In this document: one piece after another, positions 24,085 to 34,016 of the stretch
Numbering within the stretch: position 1 is the first letter of the stretch
Layout of the letters: the number at the start of each line of letters is the position of its first letter
From: Thermodesulfobacteriota bacterium
Lineage (GTDB): Bacteria; Desulfobacterota; Dissulfuribacteria; Dissulfuribacterales; QOAL01
Direction: 5' to 3'
Length of the DNA: 49,584 nucleotides
Assembly: GCA_013154175.1 (NCBI GenBank)
Contig: JAADCZ010000011.1
Span: forward strand, 1 to 49,584
Notes under the pieces: generated by a model
The model's database searches: none
Told to the model about the DNA's origin: nothing
What the model saw: only the letters and a program-made list of their open reading frames with translations
Program-made: the position numbers and the translations under genes

Positions 24085-24777
24085 TTAATCAAAGATTTCC
24101 AGTTCCTTGTTGATCTTGTCCACCAGGTTCATGTCGAAAAGAGCAATGGTAGGCAGGAACCACGAGATGTTGAAACGGGGGTCTCCGTCCTTGTTCTTTC
24201 CAAAGAATGCCAGAGAGATTCTGCCAAAACCGGTTTCCTTCTCTATCTTCTTTGCATCTTTCAGGAATTTTTTGGCCCATGAAGGAAGTTTGTTGTATGG
24301 AACGGGCTTTCCTTCCTGGCCCCTCTGCCTTCTAAGTTCAGCAGCAGAACCAAGGCTTCTAAGGGCTTCTATGACTCTGTGGCACTTCCTTTTCTTCAAG
24401 AAGGCGAGCAGAATGGTGCCTGCTGGAAGCCTCAAGATTTCAATGTTTTCCTTGCCCTCTCTCAACTCGACGACCAGGTGTGCAATACCCTCCATCATTT
24501 CTATATGGGCATAGACCTTTTTGTTCTTGGGAAGGGAGTCAAGAAGTTCCATGACTTCAAAGGTGCTCTCTCCGTCCTTGTAGGAATCCCCTGCCTTTTT
24601 CTTGTCTTTTACAGCGGTAAAATAGGTCTGTTTTCCATCCTTCCTGCCAAAGATGAGGTCAAAACCCCACTTTTTAAGGGAAGATAGGCTGAATTCCCTT
24701 TCCTTCTCCGGCTGACCAAGGGTCTCGAATACCAGGGTATTGTTAACCTGAATTTCCCTCAACTCTTTTATTTTCAT
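24085..24777 (-). CDS. Hypothetical protein, unrecognised
   Basis: A 230-residue soluble, lysine-rich protein with no signal peptide or membrane helix and no catalytic motif I can name. It begins MKIKELREIQVNN and has an alpha/beta-looking centre (KVYAHIEMMEGIAHLVVEL, ENIEILRLPAGTILLAFLKK). A basic helix rich in arginine follows near residues 135-155 and the end is aromatic. The start is well supported by an AAAGGAGG site seven bases before the ATG. It is divergently oriented from hdeD, sharing a 289-bp AT-rich region, and so could be regulated together with the stress genes. Coding is secure because of base composition and the ribosome-binding site; function is unknown. Confidence 0.72.
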   Translation of the reverse strand: MKIKELREIQVNNTLVFETLGQPEKEREFSLSSLKKWGFDLIFGRKDGKQTYFTAVKDKKKAGDSYKDGESTFEVMELLDSLPKNKKVYAHIEMMEGIAHLVVELREGKENIEILRLPAGTILLAFLKKRKCHRVIEALRSLGSAAELRRQRGQEGKPVPYNKLPSWAKKFLKDAKKIEKETGFGRISLAFFGKNKDGDPRFNISWFLPTIALFDMNLVDKINKELEIFD

Positions 24778-25066: not shown

Positions 25067-25696
25067 ATGGCAGATACTATGTCGAAGGTCAAATTTGAAT
25101 GGGGAGATGTCAAAAAGAATTGGAAATGGCATCTTCTCTTGGGATTTTTTTTCGTAATTACAGGAACCATCGGGTTGGTATTGACGCCCATAGCCACCCT
25201 TTCTAGCGTTCTGCTCTTTGCAGCTTTCATGATGGCTGGTGGTGTTTTACAGCTTGCAGAGGCAGTTGGCGCAACAAAGGGATGGAAGAGCAGACTCCTT
25301 AATATTATTGCCGGGCTGGTGTATATTGCAGGTGGAGTCGTCTGTGCCATGAATCCAGTGGCGGCATCTCTGGCTCTGACCGTTATATTGGCAGTAGCTA
25401 TATTTATTATTGGAGTTTTTAGGGTTGTTGTCGCCTTTCAGCACAGGCAAGAGCTTCGCGATTGGGGCATCGTTCTGATAAGTGGTTTGGCATCCATTGC
25501 CATTGCCGTACTGATTGCCATCTCATGGCCCTATTCAGCACTTTGGACACTTGGAATCTTTATTTCCGTCGACCTCATCTTCAATGGATGGAGCCATATC
25601 GTAATTGCCCTGGCAGCAAGGAAGAGCCTTGAGGAGAGTGAAAAGGAAAAGGAGACACCTTCCGGACAGGAAGTTGCTGGTTCGGCTTCTGCCTAA
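25067..25696 (+). CDS. hdeD: HdeD family acid-resistance membrane protein (DUF308)
   Basis: A 209-residue membrane protein with six predicted helices arranged as three helix pairs, the hallmark of HdeD. Repeated patterns such as FFVITGTIGLVLTP, IIAGLVYIAGGVVCAMNP and LISGLASIAIAVLIAISWP mark each unit. E. coli HdeD contributes to acid resistance at high cell density; the mechanism is unknown. A charged tail (about residues 188-209) follows the last helix. The ribosome-binding site AGGAGGA is strong. It is followed after 56 bp by a yfdX-family gene and probably shares its terminator. Confidence 0.88.
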   Translation: MADTMSKVKFEWGDVKKNWKWHLLLGFFFVITGTIGLVLTPIATLSSVLLFAAFMMAGGVLQLAEAVGATKGWKSRLLNIIAGLVYIAGGVVCAMNPVAASLALTVILAVAIFIIGVFRVVVAFQHRQELRDWGIVLISGLASIAIAVLIAISWPYSALWTLGIFISVDLIFNGWSHIVIALAARKSLEESEKEKETPSGQEVAGSASA

Positions 25697-25752: not shown

Positions 25753-26688
25753 ATGTTCTATGTGAAAGGTGCAAAAGCAGCAATTGCCACTCTAGTCATG
25801 ACACTTAGCTTGCTACTGTTCCTGACACCTGTAAACGGTGTTGCCCTTGCCAAGGAGGCTGGTTCCCAGGCTAATAAAAGTGGCATGAAGACGTCAGCAG
25901 AGGTGTCAAAGGGTGCTGTAGAGAAGGAAAAGAAGAAGGCCGAAGACATCAAGAAGGAACTGAACAAGAAGGCCGTCGAGGCAGTTGCCAACACCTACAA
26001 GGTCTTGGAGCTGCTCAATCAGAACAAGTCCAAAGAGGCCCTCGATCTTCTGAAAAATGTCATTGGCGAGCTGGAAGTGGTACTTGCTGCCAATAAAGAG
26101 GTGGCTCTGGTGCCCATCAACACCTACACAGTGGTCGTTGATACCGAAATGGACGCCAAGCAGATTGCAGCTGCCCTAAAGGATGTGAAAAGGCTTCTCA
26201 ATGAGGGCGATGTCCAGGCAGCAAGAAGGCTGCTCAACACCCTTCAGAGTGAGATTGACATTGTTACAGAGAACCTGCCCCTTGCCACCTACCCAGATGC
26301 TATGAAGCTTGCTTCCAAGTACATTGTTGATGGCAAGATTGAGCAGGCAAAAAGTGTCATCTCCATTGCACTCAATTCCATGGTGGTCAAGACCATCGTT
26401 ATCCCATTGCCACTTGTAAGGGCTTCAGACCTGATTGCTGAGGCATCCAAGGTTGCCAAGAAAGACAAGGAGCAGGCTCTCAAGTACCTCGACGAGGCAG
26501 AGAAACAGCTCAACATTGCCAAGATTCTTGGTTACGGCAAGGGAGATCCTGAAGTCTACAAGGATTTCGAAAAGAGGATAGAGGCCATCAAGAAGGAGAT
26601 AAAGGGCAAGAACAAGGCTGAAAAGATGTTCGAAGAGATCCTCCAGAAACTCAAGGAGTTCAAAAAGAAGCTGGCAGCATCCCATTAA
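25753..26688 (+). CDS. YfdX family periplasmic protein
   Basis: A 311-residue exported protein of the YfdX family. A signal peptide is visible (residues 1 to about 33, hydrophobic core LVMTLSLLLFLTPVNGVALA). The mature part is almost wholly helical: a lysine/glutamate-rich coiled-coil region (about 50-75), then the YfdX core of antiparallel helices with ALDLLKNVIGELEVVLAA and DVQAARRLLNTL. A second charged helix lies at the C-terminus (KRIEAIKKEIKGKNKAEK). In enterobacteria yfdX belongs to the EvgA acid and drug-resistance regulon, which matches its pairing with hdeD. It ends 25 bp before a strong terminator. Confidence 0.85.
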   Translation: MFYVKGAKAAIATLVMTLSLLLFLTPVNGVALAKEAGSQANKSGMKTSAEVSKGAVEKEKKKAEDIKKELNKKAVEAVANTYKVLELLNQNKSKEALDLLKNVIGELEVVLAANKEVALVPINTYTVVVDTEMDAKQIAAALKDVKRLLNEGDVQAARRLLNTLQSEIDIVTENLPLATYPDAMKLASKYIVDGKIEQAKSVISIALNSMVVKTIVIPLPLVRASDLIAEASKVAKKDKEQALKYLDEAEKQLNIAKILGYGKGDPEVYKDFEKRIEAIKKEIKGKNKAEKMFEEILQKLKEFKKKLAASH

Positions 26689-26826: not shown

Positions 26827-27987
26827 ATGCGTATCAAAGCAAACTTGCAAGGAGATAAGGGAGGCGTCGTCTCCATTGGGCTTGTGGTGGATGCCAAGGA
26901 TGAGATGGGGCTCAAATGGTCCTCGTGGCTGAAGTCGAACCTTGAAGCCGAGCTCCAAAAGGAGTTCCCCCAATTTTTATGGCAAATTACCTTGATCAAG
27001 AGACACGATTTTCCAAACGAAAGCCCGGTGGATCCATTGATTCTTCTGGAATTTGGTTCTGATCTAAAGATTGAGTACGGCTTCGACTTCGTACTGATGA
27101 TAACATCCATGCCCTTGAAGTCGCGTTTCAGCCAAGGAGCAAGTGGAGTGCCATCAAACATGCTGGAGACAGCAGTAATCTCCCTTGGAAAGATATTGGA
27201 ACTCGAAAACAAGGAGAAGATAGGCAAGGCCTTCATGGCCCTAACCAAGCACCTCCTGGGGCATCTGTGGGGGCTTGATCACAATCAAAAAAGTGTCATG
27301 CGCCCAAGAAAGTTTTGGGACGGTGAGCCTCCATACGACTGGAGTCCAGAAGAAAAGCAGGAGATAATTCGTCATCTGAGTCAGGTGGCTGACCCTCGGC
27401 TGGAAGAAAAGGGCGATATAAAGAGCAGATGGAGGTTTTATCTCCAGGTACTTCTACAGGAGGGCCCTTCCATAGCAAAGGATATCTTTCTGTTTCGGTC
27501 GGTCCTCATGATGTTTCATCTTAGCCGGTTTATTGCAGCAACCGTAGTTTCAGTGATTTTTCTGTTCTTGAGCGCTGAGGCCTGGGAAATGGGTGCGGCA
27601 ATGCGCACTGGATGGCTGGATTTTTTTCTGTTGGCAGTGATTATTGCTGCCACCTTGTCCATCTACTATGGTCAAAATCTCCAGGCCATTGGAAAGAGTG
27701 ACAAGATGAAGGAGCAGGCGGTGAGGTCGAAGATTGTGTTGTTTGGTACCTTGTTGGTTGGAATGGCTGCCTTTTGGGTCAATCTTTTCGTAATTTCGTT
27801 TGTTATAATCAAACTACTTCCTGCAAGCGTTCTTGCTGGCTGGGCAGGCCTTGGGACAAAACCGTTGCCGGCCCTTCATTTTTCAAAGCTGATGGCAACC
27901 TTTGGCGTGCTTGCCTCGGCCGTTGGAGGTAACCTGGAAGAAGAGCATGATATAAAGGCATTGTTGGTGTTCACAGAGGAGACTTAA
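26827..27987 (+). CDS. Membrane protein with a degenerate metzincin-like domain
   Basis: A 386-residue protein that I cannot place in a named family. Residues 1 to about 200 look like a soluble archaemetzincin-type fold: strands VVSIGLVVDAKD and FDFVLMITSMPL, then HLLGHLWGLDH at residues 142-152. This keeps the three zinc-binding histidines and the glycine of the metzincin HExxHxxGxxH signature but has leucine in place of the catalytic glutamate. A methionine eight residues after the motif (SVMRP) could be the Met-turn. Three or four membrane helices follow (about 235-255, 262-281, 303-331, 355-370). The AGGAGG sequence is only two bases before the ATG, so the real start may be slightly downstream. 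It is followed after 4 bp by a K+ channel gene. Confidence 0.72.
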   Translation: MRIKANLQGDKGGVVSIGLVVDAKDEMGLKWSSWLKSNLEAELQKEFPQFLWQITLIKRHDFPNESPVDPLILLEFGSDLKIEYGFDFVLMITSMPLKSRFSQGASGVPSNMLETAVISLGKILELENKEKIGKAFMALTKHLLGHLWGLDHNQKSVMRPRKFWDGEPPYDWSPEEKQEIIRHLSQVADPRLEEKGDIKSRWRFYLQVLLQEGPSIAKDIFLFRSVLMMFHLSRFIAATVVSVIFLFLSAEAWEMGAAMRTGWLDFFLLAVIIAATLSIYYGQNLQAIGKSDKMKEQAVRSKIVLFGTLLVGMAAFWVNLFVISFVIIKLLPASVLAGWAGLGTKPLPALHFSKLMATFGVLASAVGGNLEEEHDIKALLVFTEET

Positions 27988-27991
27988 CACC

Positions 27992-28906
27992 ATGAAAAAG
28001 GCTGTGGCCGAATACTTTGACAGTGCTTGGGGAGGAGTTGCCAACAAGTTGGTCTCGGGATTCCTCGTAATCATCATATTCACCAGTTCCATCTGTCTGG
28101 TGCTCACCACGGAACCCTCCATTGAAGAGAAGTATGGTTACTATTTGTGGCTGTTCGAGGCCTTCTCCAGCTTTGTCTTCATGGTCGAATATTTGTTGAG
28201 GGTGTGGAGTTGTCCTGAAGAGACCAATGAGGACAGTTGCTGGAAGGTCCGGTTTCGTTACATCTTCTCCTTCATGGGCATGGTGGATTTACTCTCCTTC
28301 CTGCCCTTCGTCCTGCTGGTCATGGGGTGGTCCCAGACACCTCAACTAATGCTCCTGCAGCTGTTGAGGCTCCTGAAGCTTACCCGCTACTCCGTTGCCT
28401 TTGACTTGTTGGCCGATGTCTTGAAGGATGAGGCAGAATCCCTCCTGGTTTCTGTAATGCTGATGTTCATAATCCTGATATTTGCCTCGGTGGGAATCTT
28501 CATTTTCGAACATGACGTACAGCCTGATGCCTTTGGTTCCATACCAAAGGCCATGTGGTGGGCTATAGTCACCCTTACGACAGTGGGTTACGGAGACGTG
28601 ACCCCAATAACAGTGCAAGGTAAAATCTTTGCCACCTTTATAACAGTTGCGGGTGTGGGCCTGGTATCCCTGCCAGCTGGTATTATCGCCTCTGGTTTCA
28701 CAGAGCAGTTGAGGCTTAGAAGGGAAAAATTCGAGCTGGAAGTCGAGCAGATGCTGGAGACAGATGGCACCCTTACCGAGGAGGAAATGGGCCAACTCGA
28801 GCAGGATCGCCAGCGTCTTGGAATCAGTAAGGATAATGCCGAACTCATAATCAGCCAGGTTGCCCAGAGGGAACGAAGGAAAAGGCCCTCGTCAGAGGAA
28901 GTCTAG
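27992..28906 (+). CDS. Voltage-gated-type potassium channel (six-helix, ion transport family)
   Basis: A 304-residue ion channel subunit. Six membrane helices are visible, with a pore loop carrying the K+ selectivity filter TVGYGD at about residues 196-201. The S4-equivalent helix (LLQLLRLLKLTRYS) has only a few positive charges, so voltage sensing may be weak. A cytosolic C-terminal tail of about 65 residues is acidic and coiled-coil-like. It probably forms a tetramer in the inner membrane. The 4-bp gap after the metzincin-like gene indicates one transcript and a functional link. Confidence 0.9.
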   Translation: MKKAVAEYFDSAWGGVANKLVSGFLVIIIFTSSICLVLTTEPSIEEKYGYYLWLFEAFSSFVFMVEYLLRVWSCPEETNEDSCWKVRFRYIFSFMGMVDLLSFLPFVLLVMGWSQTPQLMLLQLLRLLKLTRYSVAFDLLADVLKDEAESLLVSVMLMFIILIFASVGIFIFEHDVQPDAFGSIPKAMWWAIVTLTTVGYGDVTPITVQGKIFATFITVAGVGLVSLPAGIIASGFTEQLRLRREKFELEVEQMLETDGTLTEEEMGQLEQDRQRLGISKDNAELIISQVAQRERRKRPSSEEV

Positions 28907-31901: not shown

Positions 31902-34016
31902 TTGCTTTCAAACAAGCCTTGGATAGAAATAATCTTCATATGTTTTATTCTCGTACTCGGGTTTCTGGTGAGAATGGAGGATCTTAGGGATTGGAAAGCC
32001 AACCCTGTAAGGGCCCTCTACAAGGGGGAGCCCCTTCTCACCACCTTTGATGGATACTATTACCTCACCTTGGCAAGGGACCTTGCAGAGGGAACATACA
32101 GACCAATCGACGAAAAGCGGGCTGTTCCAGACTGCCCTCCAAGGCCGCAGCCACCGCCTTTGCTTTCATCCATTGGCTCAGCAGTGCAGCAGGTAACAGG
32201 CGCCTCCTTCAACTGGGTCGGTGCGGTAACCCCTGCGGTGTTAGGTCTGCTGCTTTTCTTTCCTGTCTATGGAATAGGCCGATTTTATGGCGGGCCCATT
32301 ATGGGTTGCGTGGCCGGGCTATTTTCCCTCATGTCCTTTTATTATGTCTATCGTAGCAGTCTCGGATGGTTTGATACGGATTGCATGAATGTGACCTTTG
32401 CGATGGCTGCTGTGTTTTTTGCCCTCAAATTTGGCGAGGTCAAGGACAGACGTCGATATTTGTGGTTCCTTGGGGTCCTTTTAAATTATGCCCTTTTTAT
32501 GTGGTGGTGGGATCAGACTCCCCAAGTTGCAACTGTGATTGCCCTTTTGCCAGTGACTGTGGCAATGGTCTTTTTCTACAGGCCAGAGAAAAGAGAAGGT
32601 ATCGTGTTCTTGTCGAGCCTGGGGGTTTTGGGGCTAGCCTTCTTCTTTATAAAGGGCATGGATCTGCCCATTAAATCTGTTGAGGACATCCTATCCACTT
32701 ACAAGTACATATCCAAGCAGGTCGCTGGGGATTTCCCAAATATTGGAGTATCCATTTCGGAGCAGGCCGTGCCGTCCTTGGCCGAGATCATATCCAAGAC
32801 GACAGACAGCGTGCTAGCCTTTATAACCGGGGTTATAGGTCTGTTTTTCCTGGCGTATCGTGCAAGGTTCAAGGCCTTGTACCTGGCGGTGCCAGTTCTG
32901 TTGAGCGGTCTTTCCTTCTTCTTTGCCAAGAGGTTCATGATCTTTCTGGCCCCAACCCTGGCCTTGGGCATAGGCTGCATATTGGTGGAGATATTCTTTT
33001 TCCTCAAAAGGTTCAAAGATAGGCCTGTAGTCGGGTTTGGAGCCCTGGTGCTATTGGTTGGCCTTCTCATTTATCCGTCTGTGCAAAGGGATTTTGCAAA
33101 GACCTTCTGGCCAAAGGAGCCCCCATTTCTGGTGGCTGGAATGGTCGAGGCTGGGAAAAAGACCCCTGCAGAGTCGGTGATATGGGCCTGGTGGGATCAT
33201 GGCTATCCAATGATTTATTGGGCCAGGCGTGCAACTATAAATGATGGCCAAGTCCACGAGGGGGAAAGGTCTGTATTTAACGGCATACCCTACGCAACGC
33301 CCAGTGATAGGTTGGCTGCCAACCTGATGAACTTCTTTGTACACAGAGGCATAAGAAAGGGAACACATCTGGTTTACGAAGCCTTTGACGGAAATACCAC
33401 AAAGGGTTTTCGTTTCATCAAGGAGGTACTTGGGGCAGGGCCAGTCAATGCCGAAAGGATCATTGCCTCAGCAGGCCTAAAACCCCAGGAAGGTATAAAG
33501 ACTGTTGAGGATTGGCTGGCATTTTTCTTCCCCAAGCCAACGAGACCGGTCTATCTCTTTAATGATTGGCGCCTTACGGTGACAAACTATTGGTGGTACT
33601 GGCTGGGCACCTGGGACCCAGGGCGTCACGATGGGGTGCATCCCACCTACCTGCCCTTTTACAACACAAAACTCACGGCTAAATCCATAACGGCCTTGCA
33701 CAGAAGTGGTTCGAACCTGAAGGCAGATCTCGAAAAGGGCGTTGCTGCAGTTGGTGACAAAGTGGTTTCCCTAAAGGTGATCCACATTCGCTACCCCAAT
33801 CGGATTGAGACGAAGACCTACCCCGTCAGCCAGGGCTATTATCTGGAGGTCATCCCTGGTGGGTATTCGGCCCTTATGAGCCCCAATATAGCGGAATCGG
33901 TCTTTAATAAACTGTTCCTGCGTCACCAGTACGACCAGCGGTTTTTTGAGCCCGTGGAGCTCAAGACTCCCCTGTTTCAGATATGGAAGGTGAAACCCGA
34001 GTGGTACTCTAGCTAG
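31902..34016 (+). CDS. STT3/PglB-type oligosaccharyltransferase
   Basis: A 704-residue membrane protein of the STT3 family, the catalytic enzyme that moves a lipid-linked glycan to asparagine in target proteins. About 11-13 membrane helices fill residues 8-395, followed by a periplasmic globular domain. Catalytic features: the first-loop aspartate in TFDGYYYL (D50), the DxD motif in GWFDTD (about D157/D159), the loop glutamate motif SISE, and the acceptor-binding WWDHG motif near residue 430. Campylobacter PglB is of similar length (713). The start is a TTG with a TGGAGG site 7 bp upstream. It lies 31 bp after glnE and converges with an HD-domain gene, overlapping it by 8 bp. No glycan-assembly cluster is adjacent. 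The family is secure; N-glycosylation is inferred. Confidence 0.92.
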   Translation: MLSNKPWIEIIFICFILVLGFLVRMEDLRDWKANPVRALYKGEPLLTTFDGYYYLTLARDLAEGTYRPIDEKRAVPDCPPRPQPPPLLSSIGSAVQQVTGASFNWVGAVTPAVLGLLLFFPVYGIGRFYGGPIMGCVAGLFSLMSFYYVYRSSLGWFDTDCMNVTFAMAAVFFALKFGEVKDRRRYLWFLGVLLNYALFMWWWDQTPQVATVIALLPVTVAMVFFYRPEKREGIVFLSSLGVLGLAFFFIKGMDLPIKSVEDILSTYKYISKQVAGDFPNIGVSISEQAVPSLAEIISKTTDSVLAFITGVIGLFFLAYRARFKALYLAVPVLLSGLSFFFAKRFMIFLAPTLALGIGCILVEIFFFLKRFKDRPVVGFGALVLLVGLLIYPSVQRDFAKTFWPKEPPFLVAGMVEAGKKTPAESVIWAWWDHGYPMIYWARRATINDGQVHEGERSVFNGIPYATPSDRLAANLMNFFVHRGIRKGTHLVYEAFDGNTTKGFRFIKEVLGAGPVNAERIIASAGLKPQEGIKTVEDWLAFFFPKPTRPVYLFNDWRLTVTNYWWYWLGTWDPGRHDGVHPTYLPFYNTKLTAKSITALHRSGSNLKADLEKGVAAVGDKVVSLKVIHIRYPNRIETKTYPVSQGYYLEVIPGGYSALMSPNIAESVFNKLFLRHQYDQRFFEPVELKTPLFQIWKVKPEWYSS

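Follow-up and report, generated by a model that had tools for sequence, protein, structure and literature searches.

A family of membrane-anchored pseudo-archaemetzincins, one clade of which is probably accessory to a Kv-type K+ channel encoded next to it

Background

We describe here a new family of membrane-anchored pseudo-archaemetzincins, one clade of which is probably accessory to a K+ channel. The family is represented in the window, by which we mean the whole stretch of 49,584 nucleotides that was analysed, by a gene that we call A, lying directly upstream of a channel gene, K. Our computational analysis shows that A, whose predicted fold is that of a metzincin, has lost both the catalytic glutamate and the Cys4 zinc finger, that its gene is tightly coupled to K across the clade and set among stress genes, and that it is dispensable for the keeping of K.

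In archaemetzincins a glutamate is established as the catalytic base, and the Cys4 zinc finger HCX4CXMX17CXXC is a fingerprint of the group (PMC3427221). CarG of Myxococcus xanthus is an inactive archaemetzincin that retains two zincs and is tightly complexed with the protein that a translationally coupled gene encodes (PMC8156234). ADAM11, ADAM22 and ADAM23 are inactive metzincins that interact with Kv1 channels (PMC5906670, PMC11266112).

Results

Gene A encodes a predicted metzincin fold related to archaemetzincins

The features of the window to which the text refers are the following.

25067..25696, + strand: DUF308 (HdeD-type) membrane protein gene upstream of A, recurrent near A-K
25753..26688, + strand: YfdX-family gene upstream of A, recurrent near A-K
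26827..27987, + strand: gene A, 386-aa membrane-anchored pseudo-archaemetzincin (open reading frame, AlphaFold model, profiles)
26863..27396, + strand: N-terminal metzincin-fold domain of A, about residues 13-190, predicted cytosolic, zero cysteines
27250..27282, + strand: HLLGHLWGLDH, residues 142-152 of A, metzincin histidine triad and glycine with Leu143 for the catalytic glutamate
27298..27300, + strand: Met158 of A, Met-turn equivalent (VMRP), from profile comparison and a 51-member alignment
27421..27987, + strand: C-terminal helical module of A, residues 199-386, four predicted transmembrane (TM) helices and a conserved GGNLEEE...TEET tail
27992..28906, + strand: gene K, 304-aa 6-TM Kv-type K+ channel with a cytosolic C-terminal tail (Ion_trans, TVGYGD)

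Homologues of A were gathered from relatives, from named genomes, and from Chloroflexota, the window's phylum and Deinococcota. The AlphaFold model of A (pLDDT 84.3) aligned to archaemetzincin 2x7m with a VIA-align Z of 20.4 (2.2 Å over 170 residues); Z for the four solved archaemetzincin entries was 20.4, 19.0, 18.6 and 16.2, against at most 14.6 for every other metzincin. By hhalign, the A family matched bona fide archaemetzincins at E 6.7e-10, and a search of PDB sequences (hmmsearch) placed AmzA first (3zvs, E 1e-4). The NCBIfam archaemetzincin model recognised 25 of 31 family members (best 1.5e-9) and, in a whole-genome scan, picked up three A genes (roughly 1e-4 to 8e-4); the window's own A reached 0.13 with this model (NF033823, 12.2 bits, below the curated cut-off of 145). 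Profiles of the A family also retrieved, unprompted, ordinary archaemetzincins of 175-180 aa (L061-L064, L079, L080). No Pfam family matched A, even at E up to 1, and the NCBIfam model Myxo_non_zincin, which covers CarG-like inactive archaemetzincins, gave no match to the window's A and weak matches to five other members (best 0.0073). The predicted model and the sequence profiles thus agree in assigning to the N-terminal domain a metzincin fold akin to that of archaemetzincins, as had been guessed in an earlier note made from the letters alone.

Loss of the catalytic glutamate and retention of the histidine triad

The earlier note had also read the motif, with leucine in place of the catalytic glutamate, and a possible Met-turn, and both readings were borne out: Leu143 (codon CTC) occupies the position of the metzincin glutamate, and Met158 lies six residues past the third histidine. 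The pattern HxxxHxxGxxH appeared in just 27 of 200,000 shuffled versions of the A protein. Across 51 homologues, His142 and Gly145 are conserved in 51, Met158 in 49, His152 in 48 and His146 in 43. Position 143 is Leu in 27 of these members, Val in 6, Cys, Ile and Phe in 4 each and Thr in 2, with Ser, Asn, Met and Glu occurring once each; the catalytic glutamate is therefore missing from 50 of the 51, which rules out a sequence error as the cause of its absence. The sole glutamate-bearing member, L029 (Anaerolineae), has an intact HELGHLWGLDH; since the corresponding residue of its sister, L097, is Met, we do not favour the view that L029 is a remnant of an ancestral active clade. Cysteine is absent from the whole window protein, and with it the Cys4 zinc finger.

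In the clade associated with the channel, His142, His146, His152 and Met158 are each found in 18 of 18 sequences, position 143 being V, C, L, I, S, T or N, and no more than 34 of the 184 positions in the N-domain are invariant. Outside this clade His146 is replaced by Asp or Arg in eight members and His152 by Thr or Arg in three (Herpetosiphon-like members carry Asp at the second histidine, and two members from the Deinococcota search Thr at the third), which indicates that metal binding is not required across the whole family. It is likely that catalysis was lost early in the A family and that a presumed metal binding was retained in the channel clade and is decaying elsewhere. Pairwise dN/dS of A, at 0.06-0.28 over both halves of the protein, denotes purifying selection. 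As bona fide archaemetzincins are also present in some A-carrying genomes, A is no simple replacement of one. A soluble-looking archaemetzincin relative with a degenerate site (HHLGHVLGLPRP, then HCTNRCVM) was also observed in Chloroflexota (L100:354-1154, + strand).

The membrane module of A

The four predicted TM helices span residues ~232-250, 261-282, 303-330 and 348-370. F247, S278, Y280 and H351 are residues peculiar to the channel clade. The three or four helices proposed in the earlier note correspond well to a hydropathy scan, which gave three in the window's A and four in many homologues, and to the AlphaFold model, in which the C-terminal half is all helical with four long helices. 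No signal peptide was found in A, and Lys/Arg residues are few in the predicted outside loops and number 3-7 in the inside loops; on these counts, the N-terminal domain and the TM2-TM3 loop should face the cytoplasm. Predicted alone, the C-terminal module gave a pLDDT of 83.1 and had no clear fold relative among solved structures (best Foldseek E 0.51, best VIA Z 5.2).

Gene K encodes a Kv-type channel

The TVGYGD K+ channel that the earlier note placed four bases after A is indeed there, the TAA of A and the ATG of K being separated by 4 nt. K matches Ion_trans (5.1e-29) and Ion_trans_2 (8.5e-15) in Pfam and KCNQ4 in the PDB (1.8e-33), and its filter, at residues 197-202, is intact across all paired loci. 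An S4-like segment (QLLRLLKLTRYS) is present, and the voltage-sensor residues, the S4 charges R126, K129 and R132 and the S2/S3 acidic residues E66 and D99, are invariant in nine sequences. With domain, filter and voltage-sensor residues all in place, K is by its sequence a predicted Kv-type (6-TM) K+ channel. Residues ~247-290 (28730-28861) form a conserved cytosolic tail, DG-x-L-T-x-E-E...LG-I/L, that is found in genomes lacking A as well and is possibly a second regulatory element.

The A-K pair is specific to one lineage of the family

K lies directly downstream of A in 15 of the 18 tree rows of one clade (support 99/94), and in almost every paired locus the gap between the two genes measures -4 to +13 nt. 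The three unpaired rows are L024, where K is on a different contig of the same genome, L028, where A reaches the contig end, and L026, for which a K orthologue was looked for and not found. L012 was excluded from the tree on account of an in-frame TAG within A, and there too K adjoins A. The gammaproteobacterium L030 also falls in the clade; its branch is long, and its exact placement accordingly less sure. In the sample from the window's order, a K orthologue occurs in 11 of 11 A-bearing genomes; the presence of A is patchy (11 of 41 genomes sampled). Relatives of A in Chloroflexota, Deinococcota and Desulfacinum have other neighbours and no adjoining K. The A-K pairing is specific to one lineage of the A family: the conserved pairing envisaged in the earlier note held within A's own clade, in those 15 rows plus one disrupted copy, and failed outside it.

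Two genomes of the same genus, G002 and G007, carry YfdX-K-glnE without an intact A, and G002 retains a fragment of the A C-terminus at the expected site (L086:1380-1502). The retention of K in these genomes argues that A is accessory to K and dispensable for keeping it; taken with the cases of A that have no adjoining K, it indicates that neither strictly requires the other. In G014 (L012/L002) a single in-frame TAG breaks A and leaves the channel intact, through either decay or assembly error.

The pair lies among envelope-stress genes

The flanks of the loci were surveyed for YfdX, DUF308, PsiE and FtsH. YfdX and DUF308 (HdeD-type) genes lie upstream in the window, L013, L015-L018 and L023; in L014 YfdX occurs alone, at a contig end, and in L025 it is downstream. 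In L017-L022 and L030 K is followed on its own strand by a PsiE-family gene that overlaps it or lies close by, which suggests an A-K-PsiE operon. An FtsH gene is present in L022 and ClpB in L027. YfdX and/or PsiE, of which most of these genomes have one copy each, were found near 14 of 16 paired loci, a count that includes close relatives and hence non-independent cases, the Desulfobulbaceae and gammaproteobacterial ones being distant, against 0 of 8 loci outside the clade. Our inference is that the pair contributes to ion homeostasis as part of an envelope-stress gene set.

Other genes were observed in these surroundings. A UPF0128 gene lies near A in the window (24085-24777, - strand), L013, L015 and L016, and about 1.3 kb from A in L035 (Thermaceae). 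A second channel gene, with pentapeptide repeats and Ion_trans_2, lies some 3 kb upstream of A-K in L025 (L025:779-1783, - strand), and the window, although bacterial, also encodes a STT3/PglB-like oligosaccharyltransferase (31902-34016, + strand).

Discussion

We think it reasonably probable that A is a cytosol-facing, metal-binding pseudopeptidase fused to a 4-TM module and co-translated with K as its accessory (beta-like) subunit, within a stress gene set. We infer a physical A-K complex, retention of metal, a ligand and an effect on gating. In the mechanism that we propose, the TM module of A would pack against K within the membrane, and the pseudo-metzincin domain, probably keeping a metal through its three histidines, would bind a cytosolic ligand (a peptide, a protein end or the metal itself being the candidates) without cleaving it. 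Occupancy of A by this ligand would alter the gating or abundance of K, and the pair would act in an envelope and ion-homeostasis stress set together with YfdX, DUF308/HdeD-type and PsiE proteins.

The domain might instead be a pure scaffold that binds neither metal nor ligand and stabilises or positions K or neighbouring membrane stress proteins. Pseudopeptidase scaffolds have precedents (PMC11266112), and members with Asp or Thr at the zinc histidines still keep the fold-defining residues; we nevertheless consider this rather unlikely for the channel clade, where all three histidines and the methionine are invariant (18/18) in a domain with so few invariant positions (34/184). It also seems unlikely to us that A and K are envelope-stress proteins that are co-expressed and act separately, with no physical complex. 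YfdX, DUF308, PsiE and FtsH do share the neighbourhood, and K was kept after the decay of A in G002, exists without an intact A in G007 and lies on another contig in the L024 genome; against this, A is joined to K much more closely and with much less variation than the pair is linked to YfdX or PsiE, and the pairing persists between the gammaproteobacterial L030 and Desulfobulbaceae. That A is still an enzyme, its three-histidine metal site performing some other hydrolysis without the classic glutamate base, we hold to be improbable: retention of the triad in the channel clade and the intact motif of L029 speak for it, but the glutamate is the established base of archaemetzincins (PMC3427221), and drift at position 143 among V, C, L, I, S, T, N, F and M leaves no conserved substitute base. 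An anti-phage or toxin-like two-gene system with K as the membrane-depolarising effector, to which the patchy presence (11/41 genomes) and the sensor-plus-channel arrangement might point, is very improbable and was rejected for want of PADLOC support (a lone match of E 0.04 for A and none for K), the surrounding genes being housekeeping and stress genes and K surviving the loss of A.

The accessory-subunit reading can be set beside several known systems. Archaemetzincins (M54; AmzA, PDB 2x7m, 3zvs, 4axq and 3lmc), the closest to A in both structure and sequence profile, share with it the fold, the histidine triad, the Met-turn and a probable cytosolic location; A differs from them in the missing catalytic glutamate and Cys4 zinc finger, in a Met loop two residues shorter and in the 4-TM fusion. 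CarG is, like A, an inactive archaemetzincin-type protein whose gene is coupled to a functional partner; unlike A, it has HQxxH, keeps its cysteines and two zincs and has no membrane module, and its partner is a transcription factor, CarG having no DNA-binding of its own. ADAM11, ADAM22 and ADAM23 resemble A in carrying an inactive metzincin in a Kv-associated membrane protein, whereas they are eukaryotic and single-pass, with an extracellular protease-like domain linked to the channel via LGI1 and scaffolds, so that the likeness is convergent. DPP6 and DPP10, which have a serine-peptidase fold, are likewise peptidase-derived inactive membrane proteins and, with Kv4, Kv auxiliary subunits, but their domain is extracellular. 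CarG, the ADAMs and DPP6 thus show the principle and are not functional relatives of A.

The neighbourhood itself resembles the transmissible stress-tolerance locus (tLST) in combining YfdX, HdeD-type, PsiE-like and FtsH genes with an exit route for K+, which is KefB in tLST and the channel K here, KefB not being seen in these loci. The likeness rests on YfdX, DUF308, PsiE and FtsH; the tLST core is dna-hsp20-clpG, and the tLST description consulted does not include A.

Conclusion

Animal K+ channels offer well-known examples of accessory subunits derived from dead enzymes; in the literature that we searched we found no described case of a bacterial K+ channel accessory subunit of such origin. 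As a tentative extension, A-K may represent a bacterial class of Kv auxiliary subunit, built from a dead metal-binding archaemetzincin and a new 4-TM module independently of ADAM22 and DPP6, that would make K+ flux respond to proteotoxic or metal stress in the cytosol. A K+ channel is now placed in the YfdX/HdeD/PsiE stress neighbourhood, whose known locus has the KefB antiporter as its ion component. The family, unnamed in Pfam, has a conserved operon partner and a clear predicted fold, and its loss of catalysis can be traced, which makes the question of how a protease may become a channel regulator testable in a simple system.
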